The notes below the pieces were generated by a model. That model saw nothing but the letters and a program-made list of their open reading frames with translations. It searched no databases and was not told where the DNA came from. DNA of 61,868 bases, taken from positions 1 through 61,868 of the IMG/VR virus record IMGVR_UViG_3300037843_001193; one strand, written 5' to 3'. The stretch comes from a virus. A program made the translations under genes and the position numbers. Shown one piece after another: positions 32,285 to 61,868 of this stretch; position 1 is the stretch's first letter, and every line of letters starts with the position of its first letter.

Positions 32285-33286
32285 ATGGCAAACCTTTCCC
32301 GCACTCAACAGCAGACGGCAATGCTAGGCCAACTGCTGAAGACGGCCGGCGGCCGGCAGAAGCTAGCCGCTAGCCTCGGACCGTCCCTCCGCAGGCGTCG
32401 TGACTACATGAGCATCGCACGCAAGGCGCTCATGGTCGAGACCCTGCCGGACGGCGCTCTGCCCATCTACGACAAGGAGTTCGACATTGCCGCCCAGACC
32501 GTTTCCGGTCCTGCGGGCGGGTCCTTTGTCGAGGCCTTCGTGGTGGGCGAGGAGGGCGGCGACATCGTTCGGGTCACCAAGCCGAAGCGTGTCACCGTTC
32601 CGACGTTTGAAATCGTGTCGAACCCGATGATTCCCATCACGCAGATTAAGGAGCGTCGGTTCGACCTGGTCGCCCGCTCCCTCAACCTGGCGAAGGCCGA
32701 GGTTGGGGCAGCCGAGGACGGGTACGTCTTCGGGCTGTTCGACGCCGTGGCAGCCGCAGCCAACGCCCAGGTGGTGCTGGACAACGCAGCCAGGGCCGGC
32801 AGCGGCCTGTTCGACCCCGTCTACAACGGGGACATAGCCATCAGCCCGCCCATCGACCTCAACTCGATGGCTGACGGCTTCGGGCAGGTGCAGCGGCACG
32901 ACCTGTCTGTGGCGTTCTGCTTCTTCAACCCGAGGGACTACACGGACCTCCTGAAGTGGACGCAGCAGAACATCGACCGTGAGACGCAGCGCAAGCTGCT
33001 CAAGACCGGCGTCATGGGATACCTGTGGGGAGCCACCCTCCTCCAGTCCCGTAAGGTCGGCTTCGGGTGCGTCTACATCCTGGCGGACGCCGAGTTCCTG
33101 GGCGTCATCCCGGAGCGTATCCCGCTCACCGTCATGTCCGCCGACAGGCCGGACCTCAGGCAGATTGGGTTCAGCATCTTCGAGAACCTGGGCTTCCTGG
33201 TGTTCAACCCCTCCGGCGTGCAGCGGCTCACCGTCACCGGGCGCTACAAGGCCTGGGACGGCTCGACCAACCAGGGCGAGAACTAA
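32285..33286 (+). CDS. Major capsid protein, 333 aa
   Basis: A helical front (LGQLLKTAGGRQKLAASLG) is followed by a mixed domain with VTVPTFEIVSNPMIPI and GFGQVQRHDL..AFCFFNPRDYTDLL, and a beta end (FLVFNPSGVQRLTVTG). It fits the HK97-type capsid fold in size and order. It follows protease, scaffold and decoration genes. GAGAGGAG precedes the ATG. Confidence 0.75.
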   Translation: MANLSRTQQQTAMLGQLLKTAGGRQKLAASLGPSLRRRRDYMSIARKALMVETLPDGALPIYDKEFDIAAQTVSGPAGGSFVEAFVVGEEGGDIVRVTKPKRVTVPTFEIVSNPMIPITQIKERRFDLVARSLNLAKAEVGAAEDGYVFGLFDAVAAAANAQVVLDNAARAGSGLFDPVYNGDIAISPPIDLNSMADGFGQVQRHDLSVAFCFFNPRDYTDLLKWTQQNIDRETQRKLLKTGVMGYLWGATLLQSRKVGFGCVYILADAEFLGVIPERIPLTVMSADRPDLRQIGFSIFENLGFLVFNPSGVQRLTVTGRYKAWDGSTNQGEN

Positions 33287-45469: not shown

Positions 45470-46060
45470 CTATACCCCCCTGCCCCTGAGCACATGGGAG
45501 ACGGTGACCGCCAGCAGCAGCAGGTCGTAGGCAAGCCCCCTGCGGCGGCGGTAGCAGCGGTGCAGGCGCACCTCGTACCCCCTCCCCAGCGAGTTGACCC
45601 TCTCCCGCCCCACGAGCTGGGACAGCCCTGTGATGCCGGGGGGCATGTCCAGGCAGTCGGAGTAGCCGGGCACCGTCCTGGACAGGTGCTCGGCTATGCC
45701 GTACTCGTCCGGCCGTGGGCCGACCATGCTCATGTCGCCCACGAGGACGTTCCAGAGCTGCGGCAGCTCGTCCAGGTGGGTGCGCCGCAGCAGCCACCCC
45801 AGCGGGGTCACCCTGGGGTCGCCCCTCTCCACCAGGTCCAGCCTGCGGGCCGAGCCGTTGCGCATGGTCCGCAGCTTGTACATGGTGAAGGGCCTGCCGT
45901 GCCTGCCCATCCGCTTCTGCCTGAACAGGGCGGGCCCGGGGGAGGTCAGGCGCACGGCGGCGGCCAGGGCGGCAAGGAGCGGGGACACGGCCGCCAGCAG
46001 CAGCACGGCCAGGGCCACGTCGAGCGCCCGCTTGGCATGGTAGTACCTGGCGTCCGCCAC
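45470..46060 (-). CDS. Phosphoglycosyl (bacterial sugar) transferase, 196 aa
   Basis: The family order is complete: a membrane helix entry (KRALDVALAVLLLAAVSPLL), SPGPALFRQKRMGRHG, FTMYKLRTM, DELPQLWNVLVGDMS, MVGPRP and PGITGLSQL. Such enzymes move a sugar-phosphate onto a polyisoprenyl phosphate and start a surface polysaccharide. The GTG at 46060 has a perfect GGGGGAGGG site and gives the usual length. It could start or redirect a host glycan, possibly with the cassette at 57369-61868. Confidence 0.85.
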   Translation of the reverse strand: MADARYYHAKRALDVALAVLLLAAVSPLLAALAAAVRLTSPGPALFRQKRMGRHGRPFTMYKLRTMRNGSARRLDLVERGDPRVTPLGWLLRRTHLDELPQLWNVLVGDMSMVGPRPDEYGIAEHLSRTVPGYSDCLDMPPGITGLSQLVGRERVNSLGRGYEVRLHRCYRRRRGLAYDLLLLAVTVSHVLRGRGV

Positions 46061-49536: not shown

Positions 49537-49722
49537 TCTCCGTAGCTGCCTCCGCAGGTTCCTCCTGGCGCTGGCCACGGCGTCCGCCTTGAAGGGACCT
49601 TCCCCCCTGGCGGTATGGTACATGCCGCTGCGGTCGGACCTGGAGGCATAGGCATGCCACCACCCGCCCGCAAAGTAGGTGAGGCGCACCCTGTAGGCGC
49701 TTATGGAGGTCCTCTCCCTCAT
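49501..49722 (-). CDS. Small basic protein, 73 aa
   Basis: The ATG overlaps the previous stop as ATGA. The product has a Tyr/Trp-rich front (YRVRLTYFAGGWWHAYA) and an Arg-rich helix (SARRNLRRQLRRE), suggesting nucleic-acid contact. Its end contains the next promoter. Confidence 0.5.
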   Translation of the reverse strand: MRERTSISAYRVRLTYFAGGWWHAYASRSDRSGMYHTARGEGPFKADAVASARRNLRRQLRRESRQRPVYPGV

Positions 49723-50093: not shown

Positions 50094-50133
50094 TCTGCTT
50101 CCCTCCTCCTGCCTGGTATTGTCTTCCAGGCAT

Positions 50134-50169
50134 AGTATACACCGTCCTACACGGGGCAGGCGGGGATTC
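50134..50169 (-). promoter_or_regulatory. Accessory-type promoter (minus strand)
   Basis: Minus strand: GAATCC (50169-50164), 24 bases, then TATACT (50139-50134), with GTGTAGGACGGTG before the -10, nearly identical to the promoter at 44968. Confidence 0.75.
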
Positions 50170-50173
50170 TACG

Positions 50174-50317
50174 TCACATCCTGGGGCCCAGCATCTCTCC
50201 CAGCCTTTCCTTGTAGCGCTCGAAGCGGAAGGACTCCCTCGCCCACCGCCTTATCCAGGCAGGGGCCATCCTCCAGGCGGTCCGAGGGTTCCTTGGGAAC
50301 AGCCTTCTCTTCCTCAT
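50174..50317 (-). CDS. Small very basic protein, 47 aa
   Basis: The frame reads MRKRRLFPRNPRTAWRM, then AWIRRWARESFRFERYKERL. It is rich in Arg and Trp. The ribosome site is weak; TATAGT lies just upstream and might give a short leader. Function unknown. Confidence 0.45.
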   Translation of the reverse strand: MRKRRLFPRNPRTAWRMAPAWIRRWARESFRFERYKERLGEMLGPRM

Positions 50318-50363
50318 GGCTCTACTATACCTTGGTCTTCGGCGGGCGGGGGGTAATACCGGT

Positions 50364-51059
50364 CTAGTTCATGGTGTTCAGGAGTTCCAGGGCCTTCCTG
50401 CGCCTCTCGTCCCCGTGGGGGATGCGGGCCCTGGCCCCCCTTGGGGTACGGCATGGCAGGCCAGCAGCCTGCCCGCACTTGGGGCATTCTGAGAAGCGGG
50501 TACTGTCCGTGAACAGCCAGCCCGAGAACAGGGCGGCCGTGACCGGCAGGTCCAGGCTGGTCGGGTCGGGGTCTAGCCCCCTCCAGTCGTCGTCAAGGGG
50601 CTGCGGAGTGCCGTCCAGGAGGAAAGCAGCAAGGGAGGACATACGCATCTTTGACGGCTTCGATACCTGCCAGTTGGGGGGCCTCGTCTCCGGGCTGCTG
50701 AGGTGGCCCCACCATACGGCAAGCTCCCTCCCAGCCCTCATGCGCCTCCCGATGATGGTCTTTACCCCGTCATGGATGCCAACAAGCTGCGCCCCGTCCC
50801 GGAGCCTCCAGCTCCACTCCTCGTGGGCCGGGGCCCAGACAGGGAACAGGTCAGGGATACTGAGCCAGAGCCGAACCTCTGCGAAGCCCTCCGTTGTCAC
50901 CCTGACATGGGCGGGGTCTACGATGTTCAGCCCCTCATCCCTTCCTTCTCTGTAGGCATCCCACAGGTGGTCCATTCGCCATTCTTCTAGCTTCTTCTCT
51001 ATGGGGACAATAAGGCCTTTCTGTCTTAGTGATTCGAGCTTGGCGGGAGAAAGCGGCAT
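50364..51059 (-). CDS. Hypothetical protein with C-terminal zinc motif, 231 aa
   Basis: The ATG at 51059 begins MPLSPAKLESLRQKGLIVP. The middle is Trp-rich and mixed. The C end has CPKCGQAAGLPCRTPRGARA and a HGDERRRKALELL helix. A CPxCG...G..C..P.G..... HxxR..A pattern of this kind is common in actinobacterial and phage proteins with a short zinc motif. Role unknown. Confidence 0.6.
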   Translation of the reverse strand: MPLSPAKLESLRQKGLIVPIEKKLEEWRMDHLWDAYREGRDEGLNIVDPAHVRVTTEGFAEVRLWLSIPDLFPVWAPAHEEWSWRLRDGAQLVGIHDGVKTIIGRRMRAGRELAVWWGHLSSPETRPPNWQVSKPSKMRMSSLAAFLLDGTPQPLDDDWRGLDPDPTSLDLPVTAALFSGWLFTDSTRFSECPKCGQAAGLPCRTPRGARARIPHGDERRRKALELLNTMN

Positions 51060-51064
51060 AGGGG

Positions 51065-51223
51065 CTACGCCTTGTTGCAGACGACCGCCATGAACTTGCG
51101 CCAGTCCGCCAGGGTACGGGGGGACTTCCGGTAGACGTCCTCCGCTGCTGTGACCTTGCGGACGGCTTCCTTTTTGGCGGCGGCTAGCTTTGTGGCGGCT
51201 TCCTTTTTGGTCTGCTTTGCCAT
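51065..51223 (-). CDS. Small Lys/Ala-rich protein, 52 aa
   Basis: GGAGGG precedes the ATG. The front is a repetitive helix (TKKEAATKLAAAKKEAVRK) from a short internal duplication, and the end is DWRKFMAVVCNKA. It may bind DNA, like a small histone-type protein. It is the first gene after the promoter at 51246. Confidence 0.5.
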   Translation of the reverse strand: MAKQTKKEAATKLAAAKKEAVRKVTAAEDVYRKSPRTLADWRKFMAVVCNKA

Positions 51224-51245
51224 GGGTGTTTTTCCCTCCACCTAT

Positions 51246-51281
51246 ATAATACACCGGAAAGCCTCTTTCCGGGAGGGATTC
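51246..51281 (-). promoter_or_regulatory. Accessory-type promoter with a hairpin in its spacer
   Basis: Minus strand: GAATCC (51281-51276), 24 bases, then TATTAT (51251-51246), preceded by GGTG. The spacer holds a perfect eight-pair palindrome, CCGGAAAG and CTTTCCGG around three bases (51254-51272), a candidate operator. Confidence 0.7.
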
Positions 51282-51300
51282 TACACGTAGATACATATTT

Positions 51301-51441
51301 CTACATGTTTTTCTTGGCAGGCTTATCCCGCTTCTTATCAGGCACTTCCGCTTCCGGCCGCCTGTAGCACTTCGGGCAGCGCTCCAGCTTTGCGATGCTG
51401 TTCCCGCACCCTGGGCAGACGCTCCCTATCGAGTATGCCAT
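51301..51441 (-). CDS. Small zinc-ribbon protein, 46 aa
   Basis: GAGGGAGG precedes an ATG that overlaps the previous stop (TGATG). CPGCGNSIAKLERCPKC is a two-pair zinc ribbon; the tail is Lys-rich. It probably contacts nucleic acid or ribosomes. Confidence 0.55.
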   Translation of the reverse strand: MAYSIGSVCPGCGNSIAKLERCPKCYRRPEAEVPDKKRDKPAKKNM

Positions 51442-51674
51442 CACTGCCTCCCTCTGCATGGGTCCCTCGGGGGCACCATGCCCCCCCTCTCGCATACGTC
51501 ATGGAGGTACAGCACCCTGTGCCTGGCCCCCCGCCTGCCCACCAGGGTTATCCCCCGGCGTGGGACGCCGGCCCCGTAGAGCCTGTTGCAAGGGGGCCTT
51601 CCACGCAGCAGGTGGCCCACTACCACCTGCCTGCACCTGGTGCATAGCCCCAGGAAGTACGGTACCCTCTTCAT
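51441..51674 (-). CDS. Small basic Cys protein, 77 aa
   Basis: GGGAG precedes the ATG at 51674 (MKRVPYFLGLCTRCRQVVVG). The rest is Arg/Gly-rich with two further cysteines and may complete a zinc site. No family is recognised. Confidence 0.5.
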   Translation of the reverse strand: MKRVPYFLGLCTRCRQVVVGHLLRGRPPCNRLYGAGVPRRGITLVGRRGARHRVLYLHDVCERGGMVPPRDPCRGRQ

Positions 51675-51687
51675 GGCAGCGCTCCCT

Positions 51688-52614
51688 CTAGTCATACCAG
51701 CACCTTGCATAGCGCTTCCCTACCTCGAACTCGTCGGCCCTCCCGAAGGCCTCCCTGAACGCCTTCCCCTCCCTGGTGCCGACCCTCCCCTCCTTCTCCA
51801 GCCCCTCGATGGTAAGGCGGACGTCGCCCCTGTCGGGGGAGACAGCGTAGCCGTGCGCCGTCCAGGAGGGGTGCTTGCGCATGAACCCCAGGAAGGCGGC
51901 GTTGCCGGGGCAGTTGTTCCAGGGTCCCTCTGAGGCGACCCCCAGGCGGGTCAGCCTCTCCAGCGCCCTCAGGCTCAGCCCCTTGAAGTTCCGGGTGCCG
52001 CCGCAGGGGAACCCGCTGGGGCTGGAGCCGAAGCGCTCCTTCCAGTAGGCGTCGGACTTGGCGAAGAAGGGGGCGAGTATCAGGTCCCTCTTGTCGTATA
52101 CCCCGTTGCCCAGGGCCTTCCTCACCTGCCTGTCCAGGGCGATGTCCCAGAACGGCATCGCCCGGACCAGCCTCTCCGTCCTCGGGCTGTTGAACCGGTA
52201 GGTGTCCATGTCGGGCAGGGCCAGGGGGCCGTCGGAGTTGCCGGGGGTCGTCATCACGCAGCGCTCGCACTGGCGCACGCACCACTTGTTCATCTTCTCC
52301 CCGGTCCTGGGCCTCCAGTCGGGCTTGCCGTGCCCCCCCTCGTAGGTGCCGAGGTCCGTAGGGGCCTTTCCCAGGAGGCGGTCCGGGATATAGGCGTGGT
52401 TGTCGGGGTCTACCTCCTCGTCCCTCTTGAGGAACGGGAGCGTCCCCTCCTCTATCTCCTGCATGTCGCTGGTACTGGTGCCGATGCCCACCAGGCTCCC
52501 CCCTGCGTCGAAGTACACACGGGGGCGGCACTGGATGCCCCATGCCTTGCGGCAGTCGTTGTCGCACCCCACCCTTGCGCCCTGTGCGAAGTACACGATG
52601 CGCTTCTCAATCAT
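51688..52614 (-). CDS. Two-domain hypothetical protein, 308 aa
   Basis: GGGAGG precedes the ATG at 52614. The first 120 residues contain GCDNDCRKAWGIQCRPR, AYIPDRLLGKAPTDLGTYEG and NKWCVRQCERC, a cysteine-rich pattern seen in small phage proteins. The second part (FNSPRTERLVRAMPFW to the end) looks like a different globular domain, so this may be a fusion of two usually separate proteins. Function unknown. Confidence 0.6.
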   Translation of the reverse strand: MIEKRIVYFAQGARVGCDNDCRKAWGIQCRPRVYFDAGGSLVGIGTSTSDMQEIEEGTLPFLKRDEEVDPDNHAYIPDRLLGKAPTDLGTYEGGHGKPDWRPRTGEKMNKWCVRQCERCVMTTPGNSDGPLALPDMDTYRFNSPRTERLVRAMPFWDIALDRQVRKALGNGVYDKRDLILAPFFAKSDAYWKERFGSSPSGFPCGGTRNFKGLSLRALERLTRLGVASEGPWNNCPGNAAFLGFMRKHPSWTAHGYAVSPDRGDVRLTIEGLEKEGRVGTREGKAFREAFGRADEFEVGKRYARCWYD

Positions 52615-52636
52615 GCCACGGCCTCCCATGCCAGCT

Positions 52637-52891
52637 TTAGCAGCGTGCGTTCCACCAGTCCCAGATGCCCTTGCCGTAGATGGCCTCCAGGACGGCCTCG
52701 AAGCACCAGTGTGCCTGGTCGTCGTCGTCCTTCCCCTCGGCATGCGCCTCGACTATCTCCTTCGCCAGGCGCACGACGCCGTCGAAGCTCGGGCTGGCAA
52801 GCGCCTCCGGGGGCGCACTGGCCTCCTTCTGCCGCCGCTCCAGCTCGGCCTTCAGCTCCTCGTCGCTTACCCCCCTCAGCCTGCTTGCCAT
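52637..52891 (-). CDS. Helical hypothetical protein, 84 aa
   Basis: GGAGGG precedes the ATG. The product is mostly helix (SDEELKAELERRQKEAS), then an acidic part (EAHAEGKDDDDQAHW). No family is recognised. Confidence 0.55.
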   Translation of the reverse strand: MASRLRGVSDEELKAELERRQKEASAPPEALASPSFDGVVRLAKEIVEAHAEGKDDDDQAHWCFEAVLEAIYGKGIWDWWNARC

Positions 52892-52930
52892 GCGTATCCC
52901 TCCGTTTCAGGGGAGGAGCAGGCCAGGCGC

Positions 52931-53119
52931 TTACAGCCCCGCCAGCCCCTCCCGGATTCTCAGCGCCAGAACGGCGCACTTGCCGGCCTCCTGCCTGTTG
53001 AACTCTACCTGGACGGTGCTCCACCCCCCTGCCTCTATCCGCCCGTTCCACTCCTCCAGGTCCAGCGAGAGCCTCTCCAGCTTCCCTGCCGTCTCCTCCA
53101 TCAAGGCCTTCATGTTCAT
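52931..53119 (-). CDS. Small helical protein, 62 aa
   Basis: GGAGG precedes the ATG. The front is a helix (LMEETAGKLERLSLDLEEW) followed by a short strand pair and a final helix. Its ATG overlaps the stop of the frame at 53116. Function unknown. Confidence 0.5.
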   Translation of the reverse strand: MNMKALMEETAGKLERLSLDLEEWNGRIEAGGWSTVQVEFNRQEAGKCAVLALRIREGLAGL

Positions 53120-53244
53120 GCTGTATCCTCCGTATGCCTCCGCTCAGCCTCCTGCTCGGCAAGCCGTGCCATCGCCCGTTGCTCGCCGCCGCAGGTCCAG
53201 CTCGTCCAGCAGGCCCGGCAGCTCGGGAGGAACACCTTCTCCAT
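53116..53244 (-). CDS. Possible 42-residue Cys protein overlapping another gene
   Basis: It reads MEKVFLPSCRACWTSWTCGG and then a charged helix, with high GC at third positions and an ATGA overlap with the next gene. It shares 101 bases with the gene at 53144 in another frame and has no ribosome site. Either frame could be the shadow in the shared part. Confidence 0.35.
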   Translation of the reverse strand: MEKVFLPSCRACWTSWTCGGEQRAMARLAEQEAERRHTEDTA

Positions 53245-53350
53245 CGGTGCGCCTGGGGCCGCACTCGAAGCAGCAGTGGGCGCACTGGTAGCAGCACCTT
53301 GTGGTCAGGCGGACCGTGATGACACGCCCCTCCGGGGTCTTCTTACCCAC
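53144..53350 (-). CDS. Small protein with a radical-SAM-like Cys signature, 68 aa
   Basis: AGGGGGAC precedes the GTG. VITVRLTTRCCYQCAHCCFE shows the CxxxCxxC arrangement and the preceding strand of radical SAM enzymes, but the protein is far too short for one and lacks the rest of the barrel. It may be a remnant, a zinc or iron-sulfur peptide, or one half of a split protein. Confidence 0.45.
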   Translation of the reverse strand: MGKKTPEGRVITVRLTTRCCYQCAHCCFECGPRRTDGEGVPPELPGLLDELDLRRRATGDGTACRAGG

Positions 53351-53687
53351 TCTTGTCCCCCTGCCACATCTCCTCCGTGTGCCCGCACTCCCTGCACTGC
53401 CAGGAGTCGCCCATCACGTCGTGGACCTCCTCCATCCTCTTGCCGCACCCTGGACAGACGCCAAAGCGGGCGTCCGCCTCCTTGAGTAGCTGCCGCAGGG
53501 CCTTACTGACCCTGTATACCCTTTCCTCGGGCTTCTTCTTCCTCCTGGGGGCCTGGAGGCGGGCCACCACCTCGACATAGACGTCCCCGCTGTCAATGCC
53601 CAGAGCCTTTGCCACCCCCCCGCCTACCAGGAGGTCCAGCTTCCCCTGGCGCAGGGGGACATATCCCTTGTAGCTGAACCGCTTCAC
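53343..53687 (-). CDS. Zinc-ribbon protein with a small beta front, 114 aa
   Basis: The GTG overlaps the previous stop as GTGA. The front (YVPLRQGKLDLLVGGG, then VAKALGIDSGDVYVEVV) resembles a swapped-hairpin DNA-binding strand set, although this is only a visual likeness. Residues 80-105 hold CPGCGK and CRECGH, a zinc ribbon. A regulator is possible. Confidence 0.6.
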   Translation of the reverse strand: MKRFSYKGYVPLRQGKLDLLVGGGVAKALGIDSGDVYVEVVARLQAPRRKKKPEERVYRVSKALRQLLKEADARFGVCPGCGKRMEEVHDVMGDSWQCRECGHTEEMWQGDKSG

Positions 53688-53989
53688 TGCCCCTCCAGTG
53701 CCTTGATTTTCTCGGGGTCCGCCGCCCTGGCTATGGCTATGAGGTCGGCCAGGTTGACGTTCAGCAGGCCGGAGGCCCCCTTCACGATAGTCAGGAAGAG
53801 GTTGTATCCCCCTACCATGTTGGGGGTCATGCTGGCGTCGCTCAAGCGGAGGTGGGGCACGCAGCCGTTGTCCAGGCCGTGCCCGTGGACGCACCCGAAC
53901 ACCCCCTGCTTGTCCGGGGTGCGCATGTCGGGCCAGCAGTCCTTGGTTATCTCCACCAGGGCCTCGTGAAGGTCGGCGAGCCTGCTCAT
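53684..53989 (-). CDS. Hypothetical protein, 101 aa
   Basis: GGAGGG precedes the ATG, following the promoter at 54012. The front is helical with DLHEALVEITKDCWPDM; a His/Cys patch (GCVHGHGLDNGCVPH) might bind metal. It leads the minus-strand operon that faces away from the terminase gene. Confidence 0.55.
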   Translation of the reverse strand: MSRLADLHEALVEITKDCWPDMRTPDKQGVFGCVHGHGLDNGCVPHLRLSDASMTPNMVGGYNLFLTIVKGASGLLNVNLADLIAIARAADPEKIKALEGQ

Positions 53990-54011
53990 CGGGGTTGGTC
54001 CCTCCGCTATA

Positions 54012-54048
54012 AGAATACACCGGGCGGGCCTGCCTTCCCCTGGGATTC
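54012..54048 (-). promoter_or_regulatory. Accessory-type promoter (minus strand)
   Basis: Minus strand: GAATCC (54048-54043), 25 bases, then TATTCT (54017-54012), preceded by GGTG. It diverges from the terminase gene. Confidence 0.7.
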
Positions 54049-54076
54049 CTCTATTGCTCTCTCATATAGGAGGGGT

Positions 54077-56101
54077 ATGCCCAGCGCAGGCAGGTTCAGG
54101 AGGGGAGAGGGCTTCATCAGCAAGTCGGTGGAGGAGAGGGGGATATCCGTCCCCCACGAGACCCTCAACGCCGTGGACTTCATAGAGTCCCACCGTGGCC
54201 TGAGCGTCAGGCTCTTCCCCGTCCAGCGCCTCATCATAAAGTGCGTGTTCGGCGTCCCGATGGATTACAAGGAGAAGAAGGTCCCCCTCTACGACGTCTT
54301 CCGGGAGCGCCTGCTCACCACGGTCACGGAGTCCGAGGCCCTGCATATCTTCCACGAGGAGGGGCGCTGCAACATAGGGGACTGGCGGGACATCCCCGAG
54401 AGGGGGTACAACGAGGCCTGCATCATCGCTGGCCGCAGGGGGGGCAAGTCCCAGCTAGTCAGCGCCATGGCGGCATACAAGCTCTACCTCCTCCTCAACT
54501 TCCGCAGCCCCCAGGAGTACTTCGACCTCGTCCCGAACTCCCACATAGACTTCACCTTCCTGGCCCAGGACGAGGAGGGGTCGGACCGCCTCTACGACAA
54601 GCTGCGTGAGGACGTCAACCGGGCCCCCTTCTTCGCCCCCTTCTTCAAGGCAGGCACCGGCACCTGGATGGGGTTCATCACCGAGTCCGACCGTGGCAAG
54701 AGGGATGTCACCCCCACCGTCAACGTGGACTCCCACCCCTGCACCACCCGCTCCGTGCGCAGCCCCAGCAGCCTTATGCTGGCCCTGGACGAGTTCGCCC
54801 ACTTCCGGTCGGAGAAGGGTTCCACCTCGGACGAGGTCTACCAGGCGGCCACGCCCAGCACCCTCAACTTCCACCATGCCGAGCTGCTGAACGGCTCCTG
54901 GATAAGCCAGGAGCAGATGAAGCACCTCGACCCCCCGCAGTACAGGGAGTTCCAGGACTCGCTCATCGTCAGCATCAGCTCCCCCTGGACCAAGGTCGGC
55001 AAGATGTACGACCTCCACAGGCTGGCCCTGGACAAGGGGAAGGACTCCAGCATCTTCACCCTGAGGGTATCGACGGCGGAGATGAACCCCACCGTCCTCC
55101 CCAAGATACTCCACGAGGAGCACGAGAAGAGTCCGATGACGTTCAGGGCGGAGTACGGGGGGCAGTTCCTCGACTCCTCCGAGACCTACGTCACCGAGGC
55201 CACTATCCGGGCATGCACGGACGTCAGGTACACCGAGGGGCCCGACCCCAAGCCCATCCCCGAGACCGCCCGCCTCAACCTGACGGTCTTCGCCCCCTCC
55301 TGCATCGGCCGGCAGTACTTCTGGGGCCTGGACCTGGGCATGATGAGGAACGCCACGGCGGTCGCCATCGGGCACCTGGAGCACGTCGGGGGCAAGAACC
55401 CCCTGATGCTGGTGTACGACTACATCGACCGCATGATGGTCGGGGAGAGGTTCGAGGGGCCCGGGGTGGAGGCGGTGCCCGGCGCTACCAAGTACGTCGG
55501 CTACCGGGCGCTGCCCCTGGAGGACATCGTCCTCTGGCTGCGGGCGCTCAACCGGGTCATGCCCTGCTTCCGTGGGGCCACCGACCAGCACGGCGGGCAG
55601 CAGCTCGTCCAGCTATTGGAGATAAACGAGATATACAATATCGAGCTGCTCAACCTCACTACCATTATAAACTCCCAGATGGCCTTCGCCCTCAAGGGGT
55701 ACATGGACAACACCAGGTGCAGGTTCCCCTACGTCCCCAGGTTCATGCACGAGCTGAGGACGGTGGAGGCGGAGTACGTCGGCAAGTACCAGATTAGGGT
55801 CCAGGCACCCCCGGAGAAGGGGGCCACGGACGACATGTGCGACGCCGCCGAGGAGGTCGCCTACGTCGCCCAGAAGTGGCTGATGGACGAGGGGGGCCTG
55901 CACGTGGACCCCTCCGGGGCCAGCCTCGCCATCCAGGAGCAGATGCAGAAGCCGCCCGCCCCCCTCATGTCCCTGGACGGGGTAAGCATGACGGACATCA
56001 AGGTCATAGAGCGGATGCGCAGGCTACAGAGGGGGCTGATGATGTCCCCCGGCACGGTGGTGGTGGCCAACCCCTTCCACCGGAGGACGAGGCTGAGGTA
56101 A
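54077..56101 (+). CDS. terL: Terminase large subunit, 674 aa
   Basis: The packaging motor of the head. Walker A is AGRRGGKS at 118-125 and Walker B LMLALDEFAHF with Asp238-Glu239. The nuclease half starts at GLDLGMMRNATA with Asp419 and continues through TDQHGG and ATDDMCDAAEEV, the acidic residues expected for an RNase-H-like nuclease. The length is normal for large myoviruses. TAGGAGGGG lies almost against the ATG at 54077. No small subunit is recognised nearby. Confidence 0.92.
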   Translation: MPSAGRFRRGEGFISKSVEERGISVPHETLNAVDFIESHRGLSVRLFPVQRLIIKCVFGVPMDYKEKKVPLYDVFRERLLTTVTESEALHIFHEEGRCNIGDWRDIPERGYNEACIIAGRRGGKSQLVSAMAAYKLYLLLNFRSPQEYFDLVPNSHIDFTFLAQDEEGSDRLYDKLREDVNRAPFFAPFFKAGTGTWMGFITESDRGKRDVTPTVNVDSHPCTTRSVRSPSSLMLALDEFAHFRSEKGSTSDEVYQAATPSTLNFHHAELLNGSWISQEQMKHLDPPQYREFQDSLIVSISSPWTKVGKMYDLHRLALDKGKDSSIFTLRVSTAEMNPTVLPKILHEEHEKSPMTFRAEYGGQFLDSSETYVTEATIRACTDVRYTEGPDPKPIPETARLNLTVFAPSCIGRQYFWGLDLGMMRNATAVAIGHLEHVGGKNPLMLVYDYIDRMMVGERFEGPGVEAVPGATKYVGYRALPLEDIVLWLRALNRVMPCFRGATDQHGGQQLVQLLEINEIYNIELLNLTTIINSQMAFALKGYMDNTRCRFPYVPRFMHELRTVEAEYVGKYQIRVQAPPEKGATDDMCDAAEEVAYVAQKWLMDEGGLHVDPSGASLAIQEQMQKPPAPLMSLDGVSMTDIKVIERMRRLQRGLMMSPGTVVVANPFHRRTRLR

Positions 56102-56126
56102 ACCCCTAGCTACACGGCCCATATAT

Positions 56127-56142
56127 GAGGGAACCTACCCTC
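56127..56142 (+). promoter_or_regulatory. Leader hairpin before the gene at 56157
   Basis: GAGGG-AACCTA-CCCTC is a five-pair stem directly before AGGAG. It follows GGCCCATATATGAGGG, similar to the boxes before structural genes. Confidence 0.4.
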
Positions 56143-56156
56143 TAGGAGAAGACTGG

Positions 56157-56705
56157 ATGCTGTTCTTCCTGGACCCCAGCGCAGCGCAGCCCGGCCCGTG
56201 GACCTGGCTGATAAAGTACGCCCTCCCCGGCCTGGGATGGCCTACCCTTATCCTAATCGCCTGGAAGATAAGCAGATACCTTGCCAAGGCGGAGGACAAG
56301 GCCAAGGAGGTCCTCACCTCCGCCGTGAAGGACATCGAGGCCAACACCAAGACCATCAAGTCGGCCGACGAGAGCCTGTCCAGGCTTGCAGGCACCTTTG
56401 AGCAGCACACCAAGGACGACGACCGCAACTTCAAGGACATCTATGACACCCTGAAGGACCACCGGGAGCAGTCCAGGGCCATGCTGGAACTCCTGAACAG
56501 CCGTACGACGCTCTTCGGGGACGTCTCCAAGGCCATCCAGTCCCTTGCCGAGGCGATACACCACCAGTCGGACGTGCATGCCTCGCAGTTCGAGATTATC
56601 CGGGGGATAGCCGAGAGGCAGGCCACGCTTGCCGCCAACCAGGAGCATATCACGCAGGGCTTCCAGAGGGTGGTCGAGCAGCTCATCTCCCTGATGAAGG
56701 AGTAG
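56157..56705 (+). CDS. Membrane-anchored coiled-coil protein, 182 aa
   Basis: One hydrophobic segment near 18-38 (YALPGLGWPTLILIAW) is followed by a long coiled coil to the end. The layout resembles small envelope or virion spike-like proteins and some lysis accessory proteins. AGGAG precedes the ATG. Function unknown. Confidence 0.55.
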   Translation: MLFFLDPSAAQPGPWTWLIKYALPGLGWPTLILIAWKISRYLAKAEDKAKEVLTSAVKDIEANTKTIKSADESLSRLAGTFEQHTKDDDRNFKDIYDTLKDHREQSRAMLELLNSRTTLFGDVSKAIQSLAEAIHHQSDVHASQFEIIRGIAERQATLAANQEHITQGFQRVVEQLISLMKE

Positions 56706-56714
56706 CGGGACGGT

Positions 56715-56975
56715 ATGGGTACAGAGGACAAGGACGACAAGGGGAAGGGCAGCGGCCTCCCTATGGGGAAGCTTGAGGACGCCCTGGTCCGGTTCGAGAA
56801 CACGGGCCTGGCGGGCCCCGTGCTTGCCTCCCCCATGGAGAAGCTGGAGGATACCCTGGTCCGGTTCGAGACCATGTGCCTGAACGGGACAGGGCAGCAT
56901 TTCAGGAACAGGCTGAAGGCAAGGGTGGGCACCAGGCTCCATACCATGCTGGCCCGGCTGGGAAGCCTGTCGTAG
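56715..56975 (+). CDS. Small protein with an internal repeat, 86 aa
   Basis: Residues 18-31 (MGKLEDALVRFEN) and 41-53 (MEKLEDTLVRFET) are a direct repeat. The rest is basic and helical. Function unknown. Confidence 0.5.
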   Translation: MGTEDKDDKGKGSGLPMGKLEDALVRFENTGLAGPVLASPMEKLEDTLVRFETMCLNGTGQHFRNRLKARVGTRLHTMLARLGSLS

Positions 56976-56985
56976 GGGAGAGCAG

Positions 56986-57372
56986 ATGATTATAAAGCAC
57001 TTGACAGCACTCGACACCAAGGCGGCCGCCGATGGCACCTGGACCTGGGTAGGCAACTGGTCGGCCATGTCCGTCCATATCGTAGGGCTGGAGGGGGACG
57101 TCTGGGTGGAGGTCTCGAACGACCCGGCCGCCGACCCGGCCCGCTATGCCAGCCCCCCCACCATACCGGAGGGGTGCGACATCACCGGCAACCTCACCTC
57201 CGGCGGCTCCCCCCCGGCCATCGTCGAGGAGGTCAGCATCGCCTACAGCCGGGACGGCACGCAGGTCATGGTCAGCCCCTCTGCCCTGGTATGGAAGTGG
57301 CTCCGTGTGTGCAAGAGCGGGGGGGGCGCTACCGATACCGTCGCCTACCTGATGGGCCAGGTGGAGGCCTAG
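56986..57372 (+). CDS. Probable small virion protein, 128 aa
   Basis: A beta-rich protein (GTWTWVGNWSAMSVHIVGLE, DVWVEVSND) like small decoration or tail-associated proteins. GGGGAG precedes the ATG. Its TAG shares CTAG (57369-57372) with the stop of the converging gene. Confidence 0.55.
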   Translation: MIIKHLTALDTKAAADGTWTWVGNWSAMSVHIVGLEGDVWVEVSNDPAADPARYASPPTIPEGCDITGNLTSGGSPPAIVEEVSIAYSRDGTQVMVSPSALVWKWLRVCKSGGGATDTVAYLMGQVEA

Positions 57373-58211
57373 CCCGTGAAGGGGTGCATGGCGCACTCCA
57401 GGAACCGCAGGTAGTCCTCCCGCAGCCTCGGGGCACCTACCGGCTCCGGCCTTCCCAGGGCGGCAGGCGGCAGGCCCCCTTCCCTCCCTACCACCTTGAC
57501 TCCTACCTCGCCGAGGATGCTGGTACGGTCGTCGTCCGGGCCGACGTACACGACCGGCGTCCCGAACGCCACGCAGGGTAGGGCCGCATGCAGGCGGGAC
57601 GTGAACACCAGCTCCGCCCTGCGGTACCGTGCGAGGAGGCCGTAGGCCTCCCTGTACTGCCCTGCCACCGTCTCCTCGCTGGCCTCCTCGTAGGAGAAGG
57701 GGGGGAGGGTATGGGACACGGCGACGGCGTCCCCGTAGGCCCCGGACACCGCCCTGTAGACCTCCTCCCCCGTGTCAACGCAGAACACCCCCTCCCTCTT
57801 CCCCTGGTACGGCGGCAGGGTAAGGGTGGCGCACCCCACCAGGACGGAGGGGAGGCCGTGCCTGCGGAGGAACCCCTCCGTGGCCGGGTCCCTGCACCCG
57901 ACTATGCCGCAGGGCCTTACCGCCTCGGCCGTCTCCGTGGTCCGGCAGAAGGGGGCTATATGGATGCCCACGTACCTGACGTCACGGAACCAGTCCCTCC
58001 TGGGCATGCCGTAGAACGCCATCCACCCGTTCGCCAGCAGGACCAGGTCCCCCTGCTCCGTCAGGTGGTCCCGTGGCACGAGCCTCCGTGGGGCCACGTG
58101 CTGGAGCAGGGCAAGGGTCTGGATATGGTCCCCCAGGTTGTGGTTGAAGTACGAGAGCACGCAGAAGGGCGAGTCGTCGTCCAGGGCCATCAGTTCTTCG
58201 AGGCTTTTCAT
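57369..58211 (-). CDS. Polysaccharide pyruvyl transferase, 280 aa
   Basis: The front LSYFNHNLGDHIQTLALLQH and the back FTSRLHAALPCVAFGTPVVY are signatures of the family that adds pyruvate ketals to sugars, using phosphoenolpyruvate. The pieces GIVGCRDPATEGFLRRHG and VGCATLTL fit the same fold. It is the last gene of the glycan cassette and may cap the product with a negative charge. It could instead act on another polymer. Confidence 0.8.
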   Translation of the reverse strand: MKSLEELMALDDDSPFCVLSYFNHNLGDHIQTLALLQHVAPRRLVPRDHLTEQGDLVLLANGWMAFYGMPRRDWFRDVRYVGIHIAPFCRTTETAEAVRPCGIVGCRDPATEGFLRRHGLPSVLVGCATLTLPPYQGKREGVFCVDTGEEVYRAVSGAYGDAVAVSHTLPPFSYEEASEETVAGQYREAYGLLARYRRAELVFTSRLHAALPCVAFGTPVVYVGPDDDRTSILGEVGVKVVGREGGLPPAALGRPEPVGAPRLREDYLRFLECAMHPFTG

Positions 58212-58253
58212 CTACCCGCCCCTTTCTTAGAGGTCCCCGGTGCCCATCCAAGA

Positions 58254-58365
58254 GGGGGGCTTTAGCTCCCCTGGGCCACGAGCCATAGGGACTGCCACTG
58301 AACTGGCTCCCGCACCGTGGCAGGGGAGGAGGGGCCGGGACCGGGGAAAGTCGGTCCTCCTCCCC
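58254..58365 (-). other. Gene-free, highly structured intergenic region
   Basis: Three foldable units lie between two cassette genes: GGGGGGC/GCTCCCC around TTTA (58254-58271), nested stems GCCACG/CGTGGC and GAGCCA/TGGCTC (58275-58321), and a long stem GGGGAGGAGG/CCTCCTCCCC with inner GACCG/CGGTC (58323-58365). It may hold a terminator, processing site or small RNA. Confidence 0.4.
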
Positions 58366-58368
58366 AAC

Positions 58369-60066
58369 TTACCTCACCAGGAACAGCACCTTCTTGCCCT
58401 GCGGCGTATCTACCACCTCCTCCAGGTGCTCCGGCATCGTCTTGCGTAGCTGCATATGGTAGGACGACCCCATAGGGCATACCGCTGCCACCCTGAACCC
58501 CCTGGATACCGCATGGTTGACCTTGTTCCCCAGTATGGTGCTCTGCCAGTCCGACCTCGGCGGGGGGGCAGGAGGGCGCTGCGGCACGGGGCGCTGGGGG
58601 ATAGTGGGGCGCTGGGCTGGCGGCCGCTGGACCTGCACGGGGCGCTGGGGCCCGGGGACGGGCATGATTATCGGGACTGGCCGGGGCGGCACGGCCGGGG
58701 GCCTGGGCGGGAAGGGCTTCCTCCCCGTCAGCATGTCGTGGCACTCCTCCATGTCCCCGGCGCTCGGGAGCTGTGTCACCACCACCGTATCCTTGCTGAT
58801 TATCTTCTGGAAGGGGACCTGGTTCCTGTGCGGGTCGAGGAACGGGGGGATAAGGTACCCAGGGAGGGGCTTCAGCCTTATGCCCGCCTTCCCTAGCACC
58901 TGCCCTACCCACCTGTCCTCCGCCCAGTCCCCGTAGAAGGGGGCGTCGGCCACCATCCCCATCGCCTTCCTGGAGAGCCAGTATGCCCCGCCGCTGGCGT
59001 AGTCGTACCTGATGGTCCCGTTGGGCAGCGGCGGGATTCCCATCGCCACGCTGCCGCAGTCGTTCCTGGGCAGGAACAGCCCGGCATAGTCCTCCCTCGG
59101 CACCGCCAGGTTGGCGACGTTCACGTAGCAGTCGTCGTCCGTCTTCATCATGCTGTCGTAGCCCTTCCCCAGCGCCCACCCGCACAGGGCCTTGGTCTTG
59201 AGCGGCAGGGACAGGTAGTCGTCCGGTACCCCCAGCTTCTCCCCGTCGAAGGCCACGACGTCGTAGCCCGCCGCCTCGGCGGCCGGCACCCACGTCTTCC
59301 TCTGTATGGCGAGCCTCTCCCTGTACCTCGGCTGGCCGCAGGTCACGATGGCTATGAGGGCGTTCTTGCGTGCCTTCCACCTTGCCTGGTCGGGCTTCTC
59401 CAGGTGCTTTATCTTCGGGGAGAAGGCGGCAGGGCTTACGGTCATCCAGCGCTCCGGGTGCCTTATGGCCCTGGGGTCCGGGTAGGCGTATGCGGGGGTC
59501 AGGGCCCTTGCCGGGGGATGGTCCAGGAGGTAGCGGTTGAGGTGCGACTCGTCGTGCCATACCGCCGTTATGCCCTTGGCCTTGTCGGCGTCTATGCTCG
59601 CCGCCAGCACCCTGCACATCTCCAGGAAGGGGTCTGTCCTCCCCCCTTGCAGGCACCCCTGGTAGTAGGCGGGGTCCCCCTCCACATAGGCCGTGGACTC
59701 CCTCCTTCTCTCGAAGGTCCCTGGGTACCCTGGGTGGATGACGGCCGTTATGCCGTCCGAGAAAAGCTCCTCCTCCGTCACCCTCTGGCATGCCAGCATG
59801 TCCACGTCCAGGTACAGGAGGTGCTCGTAGCCCCGCAGCGCCTCCTCCTGCGACAGGAAGGCATGGTAGCGCATCAGGGAGGCCCCCGGCCACCCCAGGT
59901 CCGCCCAGGGGGCCTTCGTGACGCCCCCGAACTCCTCCTCGCTGTCCGTGAACAGGATGACGTCGTGGGGGGGGAAGTTCTCCCTCAGGGAGGCCACGAG
60001 GGGGGCCACGAACTTGGTGTACCTCTCTCCCCCGGTCGCAATCAGCAGTATCGCCAGCTTATGCAT
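58369..60066 (-). CDS. GT6 (ABO-type) - GT31-type glycosyltransferase fusion, 565 aa
   Basis: Residues 1-235 are a GT6 domain, the family of histo-blood-group A/B transferases: LLYLDVDM with DVD at 87-89, HPGYPGTFERRRES at 111-124 and AVWHDESHLNRYLL at 168-181, nearly identical to the human signature. Residues 236-430 resemble GT31 beta-1,3-galactosyltransferases: RKTWVPAAEAAG, KTDDD at 308-312 and WAEDRWVG at 381-388. A Pro-rich linker (about 450-505) leads to a 60-residue end domain. The DVD motif is like vertebrate GT6, whereas most bacterial GT6 have NxN. GT6 is known in a cyanophage; this fusion is new to me. Confidence 0.85.
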   Translation of the reverse strand: MHKLAILLIATGGERYTKFVAPLVASLRENFPPHDVILFTDSEEEFGGVTKAPWADLGWPGASLMRYHAFLSQEEALRGYEHLLYLDVDMLACQRVTEEELFSDGITAVIHPGYPGTFERRRESTAYVEGDPAYYQGCLQGGRTDPFLEMCRVLAASIDADKAKGITAVWHDESHLNRYLLDHPPARALTPAYAYPDPRAIRHPERWMTVSPAAFSPKIKHLEKPDQARWKARKNALIAIVTCGQPRYRERLAIQRKTWVPAAEAAGYDVVAFDGEKLGVPDDYLSLPLKTKALCGWALGKGYDSMMKTDDDCYVNVANLAVPREDYAGLFLPRNDCGSVAMGIPPLPNGTIRYDYASGGAYWLSRKAMGMVADAPFYGDWAEDRWVGQVLGKAGIRLKPLPGYLIPPFLDPHRNQVPFQKIISKDTVVVTQLPSAGDMEECHDMLTGRKPFPPRPPAVPPRPVPIIMPVPGPQRPVQVQRPPAQRPTIPQRPVPQRPPAPPPRSDWQSTILGNKVNHAVSRGFRVAAVCPMGSSYHMQLRKTMPEHLEEVVDTPQGKKVLFLVR

Positions 60067-60622
60067 TTCTCTTCTCCTGGAACGGGCGGTGCGCCCTTGC
60101 TATGTCGTCCTGCACGTAGAAGGACCAGTCCGGATGGGCGTCCAGCAGCCTCCTCCTTATGTCCTCCACGGGGGGATAGTCCTTCGCCGTGCCGAAGGCC
60201 CGCATGTCGTCTATGACGACCACGATGTCGTCCCTCCCCCACCCCAGGATGGCGTCCAGCTCCCCCTGGATGGCGCTGTCCTGCGGGCCACGTGCCGTCC
60301 TCCCCTCCGACCAGTGGGCGTCCAGCCAGAACACCGCTGGCCTTCCTATGCCGTGCAGGATGCAGGGCAGGACCACGGCGCTGTCCCCGTGGAAGAGGTG
60401 GACGTTGGGGCACCCTGCGAACCTTTGCAGGCAGAGGCCGTAGAAGAAGTCGGACAGCTCTATGGAGTAGACGTCCCTGAAGAACCACCTGGTGTACTCT
60501 ATCGTGTCCCCGTCGCAGGAGCCTGTCTCCACCAGGGTGTCTATGCCCGCCCTGAGGGCGTACTCCACGAGGGTCCACCGCTTGTACTCGCCTGGGGGCG
60601 AGGGGTTATGCCATGCTCCCAT
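60059..60622 (-). CDS. SAM-dependent methyltransferase-like protein, 187 aa
   Basis: LVETGSCDGDTIEYTRWFF gives the E.G...G.T motif I, followed by VYSIELSDFF (acidic motif II), FHGDSAVVLPCIL and VFWLDAHWSEG. This is a Rossmann methyltransferase pattern close to sugar-modifying FkbM-like enzymes. Its start overlaps the previous gene. It probably methylates or otherwise edits a sugar of the cassette product. Confidence 0.7.
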   Translation of the reverse strand: MGAWHNPSPPGEYKRWTLVEYALRAGIDTLVETGSCDGDTIEYTRWFFRDVYSIELSDFFYGLCLQRFAGCPNVHLFHGDSAVVLPCILHGIGRPAVFWLDAHWSEGRTARGPQDSAIQGELDAILGWGRDDIVVVIDDMRAFGTAKDYPPVEDIRRRLLDAHPDWSFYVQDDIARAHRPFQEKRNA

Positions 60623-61313
60623 CTTTCCCCCTCCTGAAGCCCAGCACCCTCTCGGGGTCCAGGCCCTTGCCGTGCCCGAGGTGGGACAGCTCTGCCACCC
60701 ATGCCCCCATCCCCGTTATGCGGTGGTAGTTTATGCCGTTCCTCCGCATGATGTCCCCCACCCACCAGTCCTCTGCCCACAGGTCCATGGGGGCGTCCAG
60801 CAGCAGCCCTGCGGCGGCGGCGGTCAGCCAGTAGCCGTGCGCCCCCCAGATGGCCTCGTCGCCTGGGTTGCACGTCCCGGCGTACTGGTGCCCCTCAAAG
60901 CCGCTGCCCCTTATGCCCTCCCAGTCCAGCACGTAGCTGTCGGCCACGAACTGGAGGCAGTGGGTGTACCCCCGCTCTAGCTGGAACCTGGTAATCTCCT
61001 TCTTCTTCCACGGGAGGGCGATATAGGCGTCGCAGCAGCCCACCTCCACCTCGTCGGGCAGGAGGGGCCTCCCCATCTCCTCCCTGGAGAAGAACCCGTG
61101 GAACCTCCTCCCCCTCTCGTCTATGAACCCGTGCTTCTTGCAGTCGTCCAGGAAGCGGTCGGTGAGAGGCTCCAGCGGCACCTCCCCCGGCCTGCCCACG
61201 AAGAGGAACAGCGGCCAGGGGCACCCCCTCCCCCATGTGTCCCTTATCGCCTGGTGTACCCCGGTCATGGCGAACTTCACGCAGGAATGCACTGCTACGA
61301 ACGGTCTCAGCAC
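60606..61313 (-). CDS. GT31-like glycosyltransferase, 235 aa (GTG start)
   Basis: VAVHSCVKFAMTGVHQAIRD with TWGR fits the RxTW entry of GT31, and LWAEDWWVGDIMRRNG shares AED.WVG with the second half of the fusion gene. The expected DxD is weak (FVADSYVLDWEG), so metal binding may differ. GAGAGGTGG precedes the GTG. It would add another sugar in the same pathway; specificity cannot be read. Confidence 0.65.
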   Translation of the reverse strand: MLRPFVAVHSCVKFAMTGVHQAIRDTWGRGCPWPLFLFVGRPGEVPLEPLTDRFLDDCKKHGFIDERGRRFHGFFSREEMGRPLLPDEVEVGCCDAYIALPWKKKEITRFQLERGYTHCLQFVADSYVLDWEGIRGSGFEGHQYAGTCNPGDEAIWGAHGYWLTAAAAGLLLDAPMDLWAEDWWVGDIMRRNGINYHRITGMGAWVAELSHLGHGKGLDPERVLGFRRGKDGSMA

Positions 61314-61867
61314 TTTAGCCACCTCTCCGGCACGATGTCCCCGGTGTCGAGCCTGGCCATCGGCCCCATCCATACGGCGGGGGCCACTACGGTCCTCCCC
61401 GCCGCCCAGTCCCCCAGCCATGCGCCCCACCACGAGAAGGAGCTGTTGGCGACGACGGCGTGCCTGCACAGGGACATCAGCCACAGGTCCTCGTTCTCCC
61501 TGCCCGGCATGCCGGAGCCGAACAGCCTCCCTCCCGGCCTGTTGTGCCCGACCACCCTGAGGCCCGGGAACGCCTCCCTGCACCACTCCGGCTCGTCCGA
61601 GAAGACGAAGAAGCGGGCGTCCTCCACCCTCTCCCTCACCAGGGCCATGGCGGGGGGGTAGTACCCGGTGTCCCAGAGGTTGCGGTGGTACTCCGCCTGC
61701 TTCAGGTAGTCCGTCCTGCGCACGTGCAGGAAGGCGCTCCTCCTCCCGGCCGCTGCAATCTCGTCCGCCGCCCTCCTGGAGGCCTCGCTCGGGCTGCGGC
61801 ACGTGGAGAACCAGGACCTTACCAGCGGGGGGTCGTCGTAGTACCTCTCCGTCTGCCAGTAGCCGTC
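61307..61867 (-). CDS. GT11 alpha-1,2-fucosyltransferase-like protein (5' partial)
   Basis: The frame enters from the window end with DGYWQTERYYDDPPLVRSWF. Then FLHVRRTDYL is the HxRRxDY motif that binds GDP-fucose, FFVFSDEPEWC follows, and NSSFSWWGAWLGDW is the family signature. All are classic for GT11 alpha-1,2-fucosyltransferases. The N-terminal third is outside the window. Its stop overlaps the next gene. It would put fucose on a galactose acceptor. Confidence 0.85.
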   Translation of the reverse strand, partial: DGYWQTERYYDDPPLVRSWFSTCRSPSEASRRAADEIAAAGRRSAFLHVRRTDYLKQAEYHRNLWDTGYYPPAMALVRERVEDARFFVFSDEPEWCREAFPGLRVVGHNRPGGRLFGSGMPGRENEDLWLMSLCRHAVVANSSFSWWGAWLGDWAAGRTVVAPAVWMGPMARLDTGDIVPERWLKC

Positions 61868-61868
61868 G

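Follow-up and report, generated by a model that had tools for sequence, protein, structure and literature searches.

What does a bacteriophage make with glycosyltransferases (GTs) of the families GT31, GT11, and GT6, the same families that carry out ABO(H) synthesis in humans and bacteria? The question is raised by a cassette of five minus-strand genes at 57369-61868 of IMG/VR virus record IMGVR_UViG_3300037843_001193. The entire record of 61,868 bases, here called the window, was analyzed, and contains a structural module of myophage type (tail sheath, head maturation protease, major head protein, and terminase). A preliminary description, made from the sequence alone, had interpreted the cassette as a joint pathway to type 1 H and A/B antigens, possibly pyruvylated, and as a new system. 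Its gene calls were correct and its family assignments mostly so, and its overall interpretation is partly supported. As far as these searches show, the undescribed combination consists of GT31 as part of the set, GT6-GT31 fusions, reshuffling of the domains, and an accompanying lipid-carrier enzyme. Phage glycan cassettes, viral multi-domain transferases, and GT6 together with GT11 in cyanophages are already known.

Enzyme families of the cassette

The reading frames are intact, save for that of GT11, which is truncated at the contig end (Table 1). Neighboring genes overlap by 7 nucleotides (GT11 and the GT31-like gene, with GTG at 61313), 17 nucleotides (GT31-like and methyltransferase-like), and 8 nucleotides (methyltransferase-like and fusion), as counted by hand. 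A gap of 157 bp separates the end of the fusion from the start of the pyruvyl transferase gene, and its RNA fold is not unusual (z -0.93). Pfam matches over cut-off confirm four of the proposed families: pyruvyl transferase, GT6, GT11, and, for the fusion protein, GT31.

Table 1. Positions of the cassette genes and other features in the window
Feature	Position	Strand	Matches and remarks
GT11 (alpha-1,2-fucosyltransferase family), last 186 residues	61307..61868	-	PF01531 6.3e-18; phrog_2644 4.6e-34
Stand-alone GT31-like protein, 235 aa, GTG start	60606..61313	-	aligns with GT31 set A3
Methyltransferase-like protein	60059..60622	-	weak profile matches
GT6-GT31 fusion, 565 aa	58369..60066	-	PF03414 1.3e-21, PF01762 9.4e-6
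Fusion C-terminal domain, 62 aa, behind proline-rich linker	58372..58557	-	function unknown
Polysaccharide pyruvyl transferase family protein	57369..58211	-	PF04230 1.3e-12
Phosphoglycosyl transferase (initiating sugar-phosphate transferase family)	45470..46060 (ORF to 46306)	-	PF02397 2e-50
Terminase large subunit	54077..56101	+	phrog_2 3.9e-9; downstream side of the cassette
Major head protein	32408..33286	+	phrog_2522 1.8e-33; marker used to place the phage

The fusion protein comprises GT6 (residues ~1-199), GT31 (~234-440), a proline-rich stretch (~450-503), and a C-terminal domain (504-565). Its GT6 half scores 77.1 bits against a PF03414 cut-off of 25 and contains both DVD and WHDES; as WHDESHLN served as a search pattern, conservation of WHDES among the matches is circular. 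The closest homolog is BoGT6a (1.8e-28), followed by the human ABO enzymes (~1e-18). At residues 266 and 268 in human numbering, which we take to be the site of GalNAc/Gal specificity, the window has Gln and Cys (YYQGC), a pair that recurs in 22 of 81 viral GT6 rows (79 loci and the cyanophages P-SSM2 and B23). These residues differ from those of the human and bacterial ABO(H) enzymes, and we know of no specificity for the Gln/Cys pair.

The GT31 domain scores 26 bits against a PF01762 cut-off of 23 and displays DDD, SGG, and ED motifs. In a high-confidence model, a check suggested by the preliminary description, this domain resembles human B3GalT5 (Z 20.4, 213 residues aligned, RMSD 3.7) in match tables comprising GT31, glycogenin, xylosyltransferase, and other GT-A chains. 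The fusion was folded without GT6 homologs, which leaves the GT6 part of the model unreliable (pLDDT mostly <60), and the GT31 domain alone was used. A profile of 18 GT31-type sequences identified B3GALT5 (4.8e-11), C1GALT1 (9e-11), and B3GNT2 (3.6e-10) in the PDB. PF01762, the weakest of the families, has matches in 15 of the 16 related records examined, 14 of them over cut-off, but in none of 14 control genomes; the related records were chosen mostly by a query that includes the GT31 domain. The family matches of the cassette are more than chance. The C-terminal domain also follows GT31 at L007 and L008 (L and G labels denote loci and records of relatives), and no further open reading frame (ORF) in L002-L246 or the window matched it at E 10.

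GT11 scores 65.5 bits against a PF01531 cut-off of 23.9. It contains the blocks HVRRTDY, which fits HxRRxDY, and SSFSWWGAW (alignment A2), with the His, Arg, Asp, and Tyr of the first invariant in 11 sequences; phmmer against the PDB gave E 0.72 at best. The second GT31-like enzyme of the preliminary description held up in part. It aligns with the GT31 set (A3, too divergent for use as a search query) and retains the ED-WVG block, but lacks a PF01762 match, a PHROGs match, and any Pfam match over cut-off (best PF10765, E 0.11), and has V-A-D in place of the D-x-D found in 17 of 18 aligned members, the first Asp being lost. Because both PF01762 and DxD are missing, the protein is classed as GT31-like only. 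Its model (pLDDT 81), folded from an alignment of the GT31 family itself, best matches B3GalT6 (Z 14.4, 177 aligned, RMSD 3.6). Loss of catalytic residues is confined to this one enzyme, fewer than the two or more that the preliminary description had set against itself.

Assignment of the next gene product as a class I SAM methyltransferase is weakly backed. No Pfam or NCBIfam model matched and phmmer returned nothing convincing, while a profile of five homologs gave weak matches to five PDB sequences (1.1e-3 to 1.9e-2; three named methyltransferases and two CmcI), headed by CmcI (1.1e-3) and an rRNA methyltransferase (1.3e-3). CmcI presumably has a methyltransferase fold. Elsewhere this domain is joined to GT2, or to GT2 and GT6. 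The pyruvyl transferase scores 48.6 bits against a PF04230 cut-off of 25.3, covering positions 118-279 of a 280-position profile, and phmmer gave no convincing match.

Distribution, genomic site, and domain shuffling

With the fusion as query, relatives were found in 255 stretches of viral_contigs, the best of which form 79 loci, each taken with up to 8 kb of flanking sequence. In genome_contigs, this query provided the best 80 of 151 bacterial loci. All locus lists (GT6, GT11, GT25, and bacterial) are the best ~80 of more, with near-duplicates retained. GT11 is present in 67 of the 79 viral loci, at a gap of 300 bp or less in 45, and GT31 in 18. All three families occur together in 17; of these, L004-L006 nearly duplicate the window, and a single phage seems to account for both L007 and L008. 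Two loci labeled GT31 by profile (L062 and L068; 20 of 79 in total) lack the motifs and were dropped by hand, reducing the three-family loci from 18 to 17. Clustering of GT6 at 80% identity yields 43 viral clusters, with GT11 in 35, GT31 in 16, and all three in 14 (counted from the 81 rows, the doubtful L062 and L068 included). Of the bacterial loci, 51 contain GT11 and one contains GT31. The GT6-GT11 pair is general and not a phage invention; GT31 within the set is mostly viral in the sampled loci.

A GT11 query found GT6 in 36 of 80 loci, adjacent in 20. Apart from its own locus, a single GT31 protein used as query matched just one more (L248), where GT6 and GT11 are likewise present. The 80 loci found with GT25 of P-SSM2 as control query have GT6 in 48, GT11 in 47, and both in 27 (gap of 300 bp or less in five), the control being weak as GT25 sits in the same kind of cassette. 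The pairing of GT6 and GT11 is therefore clearest in adjacency (45/67 vs. 5/27). All 81 viral GT6 rows have DxD, whereas BoGT6a has NxN (reported in PMC3961637). The 80 bacterial rows are divided between DxD (28), NxN (50), and neither (2). Judging by their record titles, about half of the 28 DxD rows (L252-L331 set) belong to bins of Dependentiae, Babeliales, and Chlamydiae. An account of 2014 (PMC3961637) includes two DxD bacterial GT6 enzymes and counts the family in 36 species of bacteria and in two cyanophages.

The cassette continues past 61868. Three other IMG/VR records, 99.97% identical to the last 11.5 kb of the window, contain a complete GT11, which in L006 (5927-6760, plus strand, 277 aa) starts with GTG at 5927; through the sequence GTGA, this start codon overlaps the stop codon of a GT2 gene (PF00535 1.3e-19) that is itself preceded by an Endonuclease_7 gene. 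Such a gene lies directly before the cassette in both L006 (4810-5274, by Pfam) and L007 (3325-3891, by the same profile). HNH/Endonuclease_7 profile genes occur in 14 of the 79 cassette loci, and the Endonuclease_7 gene may move the cassette. In the 127-kb record G003, possibly incomplete, GT11 occurs a second time, as part of a fusion with a methyltransferase-like domain (L085).

Head proteins of three relatives are close to that of the window (G004, 93%; G007 and G008, 88%), with a short weak match in G005. Terminase identities are 74% for G004 and G005, and 52% for G008, whereas G007 gave no terminase match. Among isolates, the closest head protein is that of Tunturi_5 (66.8%), described as a 309-kb jumbo myophage of the acidobacterium Tunturiibacter (PMC11924767), and a host among the Acidobacteriota is likely on this basis. 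Genes flanking the cassette on both sides are common to the window and G004, and in both G003 and G004 the cassette is bordered by terminase-side genes and, at its other end, by a gene that matches sigma-70 region 4 and whose Tunturi_5 homolog is annotated as an exonuclease.

Cassette content varies. The window has GT11, GT31-like, methyltransferase (MT), and GT6+GT31+tail, in that order; G004 has GT2+MT, GT6, GT11, and Gly_transf_sug+MT-like+GT31+tail. GT31+GT6 is found in L010 (G007), L011 (G008), and L012, in the first of these alongside MT+GT2. L007 has GT2+MT, L022 has GT2+MT+GT6 in a single protein, and the 1000-residue protein of L033 combines GT31+GT6+GT2 with a Gly_transf_sug stretch under cut-off. 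In FastTree phylogenies, the GT31 domain of the window clusters (local support 0.995) with its counterparts from L010, L007, and L016, in four different partner sets, and the GT6 half of the window belongs to a different clade than that of L010 (0.981 and 0.905). This discord between the two halves suggests, as the simplest reading of the trees, at least two GT6-GT31 fusions in opposite order. Judging from these arrangements, domains have been reshuffled between phages with near-identical head proteins.

Sugar donors were sought in the same records. The preliminary description had pointed beyond 61868 for sugar-nucleotide genes; the cassette does extend there, with complete GT11 and GT2, but the possibly incomplete G003 has no match to the epimerase family PF01370. 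At least one such match is present in 12 of 13 other IMG/VR records searched and in P-SSM2, but not in B23. In the phage of the window, donor sugars are probably supplied by the host. Donor genes in relatives were typed as GDP-fucose in some (gmd in L013 and L016, 503 and 466 bits vs. 415, with GDP-L-fucose synthase-like proteins under cut-off) and as GDP-L-galactose in another (a GDP-mannose 3,5-epimerase near the cassette of L010, 5.3e-94 to 8sg0). PseB/FnlA-like and RmlD-like proteins in L014, and dTDP-glucose dehydratase-like proteins in L010 and G004, are under cut-off. Given this variety, the partner sugar of GT11 may differ from fucose in some relatives.

A candidate glycan pathway and its alternatives

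The phosphoglycosyl transferase of the window was overlooked in the preliminary description. It scores 171 bits against a PF02397 cut-off of 27, covering positions 1-178 of 179, and has the single membrane segment of the monotopic type (maximum hydropathy 2.6, residues 15-33). Its best NCBIfam model is TIGR03025, a polyprenyl glycosylphosphotransferase subfamily (223 bits, under the cut-off of 295.55). PF02397 enzymes charge undecaprenyl phosphate and start lipid-linked glycans. Because the window encodes one, a lipid-linked glycan of the host surface is the leading hypothesis. By tblastn, 39 PF02397-like genes occur in phage records, some annotated as sugar transferase or wcaJ. In G004 (L335, 7124-8537), the gene after the phosphoglycosyl transferase encodes a small protein that, by eye, begins in a signal-like and ends in a PEP-CTERM-like sequence.

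We put at about even the chance that the cassette is a phage assembly line for one short branched glycan, working at the cytoplasmic face of the host membrane. The joint pathway of the preliminary description gained support from loci elsewhere in which the same parts are single proteins (GT31+GT6, GT2+MT, GT2+MT+GT6, GT31+GT6+GT2, and GT31+MT+GT11), as parts so fused would act on one glycan in one pathway. The overlapping frames and the pairing of GT6 with GT11 in viral and bacterial loci also speak for it. The genes, their families, most of the catalytic motifs, the fusion, and the clustering are observed, whereas the product, its linkages, the sequence in which the enzymes act, a role of the lipid carrier in this cassette, the purpose, and a site on host rather than virion are inferred. 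The phage phosphoglycosyl transferase would load the first sugar onto undecaprenyl phosphate, and the chain would then grow through GT2 and the GT31 domain, the latter probably contributing a beta-1,3 hexose. GT11 would attach a sugar of L-galacto configuration (L-fucose or similar) in alpha-1,2 linkage, and alpha-1,3 Gal or GalNAc would be placed alongside by GT6. The chain would then be capped by methyl and, in the phage of the window, by a pyruvate ketal, and displayed by host flippase and ligase. The altered surface of the infected cell would block superinfection or hide receptors. That the product resembles a type 1 H, A, or B antigen, the pathway to which ends in Fuc-alpha-1,2(Gal/GalNAc-alpha-1,3)Gal-beta-1,3-GlcNAc, is a fair hypothesis, not a result.

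Several observations weigh against this pathway. Family membership does not reveal donor or acceptor specificity. A distance of 11.3 kb separates the phosphoglycosyl transferase from the cassette, and only 3 of 15 records (G003, G004, and G005) have a PF02397 match; G004 and G005 apparently share one and the same cassette, and at this frequency most relatives manage without PF02397. Phage gtrABC genes alter host surface sugars in serotype conversion; unlike in that system, the GtrA family (PF04138) is matched in none of 15 records, some possibly incomplete, compared with 7 of 14 control genomes. No phage flippase or ligase is known here, GtrA being the one such family sought. The stand-alone GT31-like protein may be inactive, given its altered motif. 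The pyruvyl transferase is not conserved, with a PF04230 match in 1 of 21 records searched, and the pyruvate branch originally proposed finds little support, though PF04230 is represented in the distant isolate Tunturi_5 as well. Finally, G003 is 99.98% identical to the window at 49372-61868 and ~90% identical, with different spacing, at 842-1507; by this comparison it is a close relative and not simply the same genome, and the records are mosaic.

The same enzymes could instead act on the particle, a possibility that we consider real, if the weaker one. As in chloroviruses, soluble multidomain phage enzymes in the cytoplasm would build a methyl- and pyruvate-capped glycan directly on a capsid, tail, or fiber protein, where it would shield the virion or tune adsorption. 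Comparable multi-domain GT/MT fusions are reported for PBCV-1 (PMC7826918), and virion glycosylation is also cited in a jumbo-phage paper (PMC12619734). The cassette enzymes tested have no membrane segment (maximum hydropathy 0.62 to 1.54). The cassette is flanked on one side by the terminase end of the structural genes, and on the other by a 278-residue gene product of unknown function, 57% identical in G004, with no Pfam or PHROGs match. The fusion GT31 model does match the PBCV-1 capsid glycosyltransferase 2p72 (Z 12.8), but this is weak evidence, as GT-A folds match each other widely; moreover, no initiating protein glycosyltransferase was identified, and the window encodes a lipid-carrier enzyme instead.

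Two further explanations are improbable. The cassette might be decaying cargo, taken from a bacterial surface locus and being lost without a selected use, as the missing Asp of the stand-alone GT31-like protein, the unconserved pyruvyl transferase, and the mobility suggested by HNH/Endonuclease_7 genes in 14 of 79 loci would allow. Its intact, overlapping frames, retention of DxD in 81/81 viral GT6 rows and 17/18 GT31 rows, and the shared site in G003 and G004 despite reshuffled content make this quite unlikely. Least probable of all is hypermodification of DNA, in which the transferases would decorate hydroxymethylated phage bases against host nucleases. Phage transferases that modify DNA are known, as cited in PMC12619734; two genes resembling DNA cytosine methyltransferases by eye lie past the cassette in L006, and a thymidylate synthase is annotated in Tunturi_5. 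However, PF00303, the thymidylate synthase/hydroxymethylase family, is absent from five possibly incomplete records (G003, G004, G005, G007, and G008; TET/JBP not sought), compared with 9 of 14 controls, relatives encode enzymes of GDP-fucose or GDP-L-galactose type, and GT6, GT11, and GT31 are families that extend oligosaccharides.

Returning to the lipid-linked pathway, a broader proposal is offered as speculation that we think rather doubtful. Large phages, probably infecting Acidobacteriota, and others may share a fast-shuffling line of fused GT31/GT11/GT6/GT2/MT modules, at a fixed site in the group of the window. In the phage of the window, where it would run from lipid-carrier initiation to methyl and pyruvate caps, its product would be a glycan resembling blood-group sugars that gives the infected cell a new serotype or covers the virion, and the line would evolve like a variable-antigen locus. 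If so, phages offer ready-made fusion enzymes that bring together GT31 and GT11 partners with DxD relatives of the ABO transferases, the latter probably metal-dependent. Such enzymes could be put to use in synthesis and in studies of why viruses alter surface sugars. Shuffling among phages with near-identical capsids would amount to a natural experiment on the purpose of the glycan.

Comparison with known systems and other genes of the window

Cyanophages P-SSM2 (AY939844) and B23 (MN695335), with cassettes of LPS type, resemble the window in having GT11 and GT6 adjacent or two genes apart on the same strand, and the claim of a new system is thus not supported for this pair. Further transferases and sugar-nucleotide genes lie alongside. 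Unlike the window, neither has a GT31 match over cut-off, both belong to another host group, and P-SSM2 has no PF02397 match. For cyanophage S-SCSM1, gmd, GDP-fucose synthase, GDP-mannose 3,5-epimerase, and alpha-1,2-fucosyltransferase are reported, and interpreted as host cell-wall modification (PMC9602691). The PBCV-1 proteins A064R (two GTs and a methyltransferase) and A111/114R (GalT, XylT, and FucT) share with the window several GT or MT domains per polypeptide and are described as serving one glycan (PMC7826918). In contrast, PBCV-1 is an algal virus whose enzymes are of other families and act on the major capsid protein, while the window has a lipid-carrier enzyme.

A cellular parallel is found in Akkermansia muciniphila CSUN-56 (L312, 1195-5841), in which GT31+MT+GT11 form a 756-residue protein and GT6 ends the next, with NGT in place of the DVD of the window. 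Neighboring cytidylyltransferase, CgtA, and group 1 transferase family genes indicate a cluster of cell-surface type. This fusion points to use of the same module by a cell, making source and direction of transfer testable.

Among named phages, BLAST found no match covering 80% of the GT6-GT31 fusion, and nothing for GT31 with two queries. This negative is soft, as the pyruvyl transferase query was also blank, although Tunturi_5 gp300 (L338, 31959-32726; annotated galactosyl transferase) belongs, like the window protein, to PF04230 (35.4 bits vs. 25.3). Unlike the window, Tunturi_5 does not appear among named-phage matches to GT6 and GT11 (both judged by the first word of the name) or to GT31, and its gp300, gp301, and gp35, the three proteins profiled from the genome, match none of these profiles. 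Open-access titles and abstracts on GT31 in bacteriophage or phage-encoded histo-blood-group synthesis yielded no such phage cassette.

Other parts of the window contain genes of separate interest. A cytidylyltransferase/NUDIX protein followed by a nicotinamide phosphoribosyltransferase (phrog_448 7.5e-143), at 2165-4568 on the plus strand, is likely to be an NAD salvage pair; by means of such pairs, some phages restore NAD against host defense. Two minus-strand proteins (8770-9984 and 14249-14842) match one uncharacterized family, phrog_12933, and a third (44313-44786) weakly matches the HicB-like antitoxin family phrog_497 (1.1e-6). At 11405-13193 on the plus strand, a Ku-like DNA end-binding protein adjoins an ATP-dependent DNA ligase, forming an end-joining pair on a phage.

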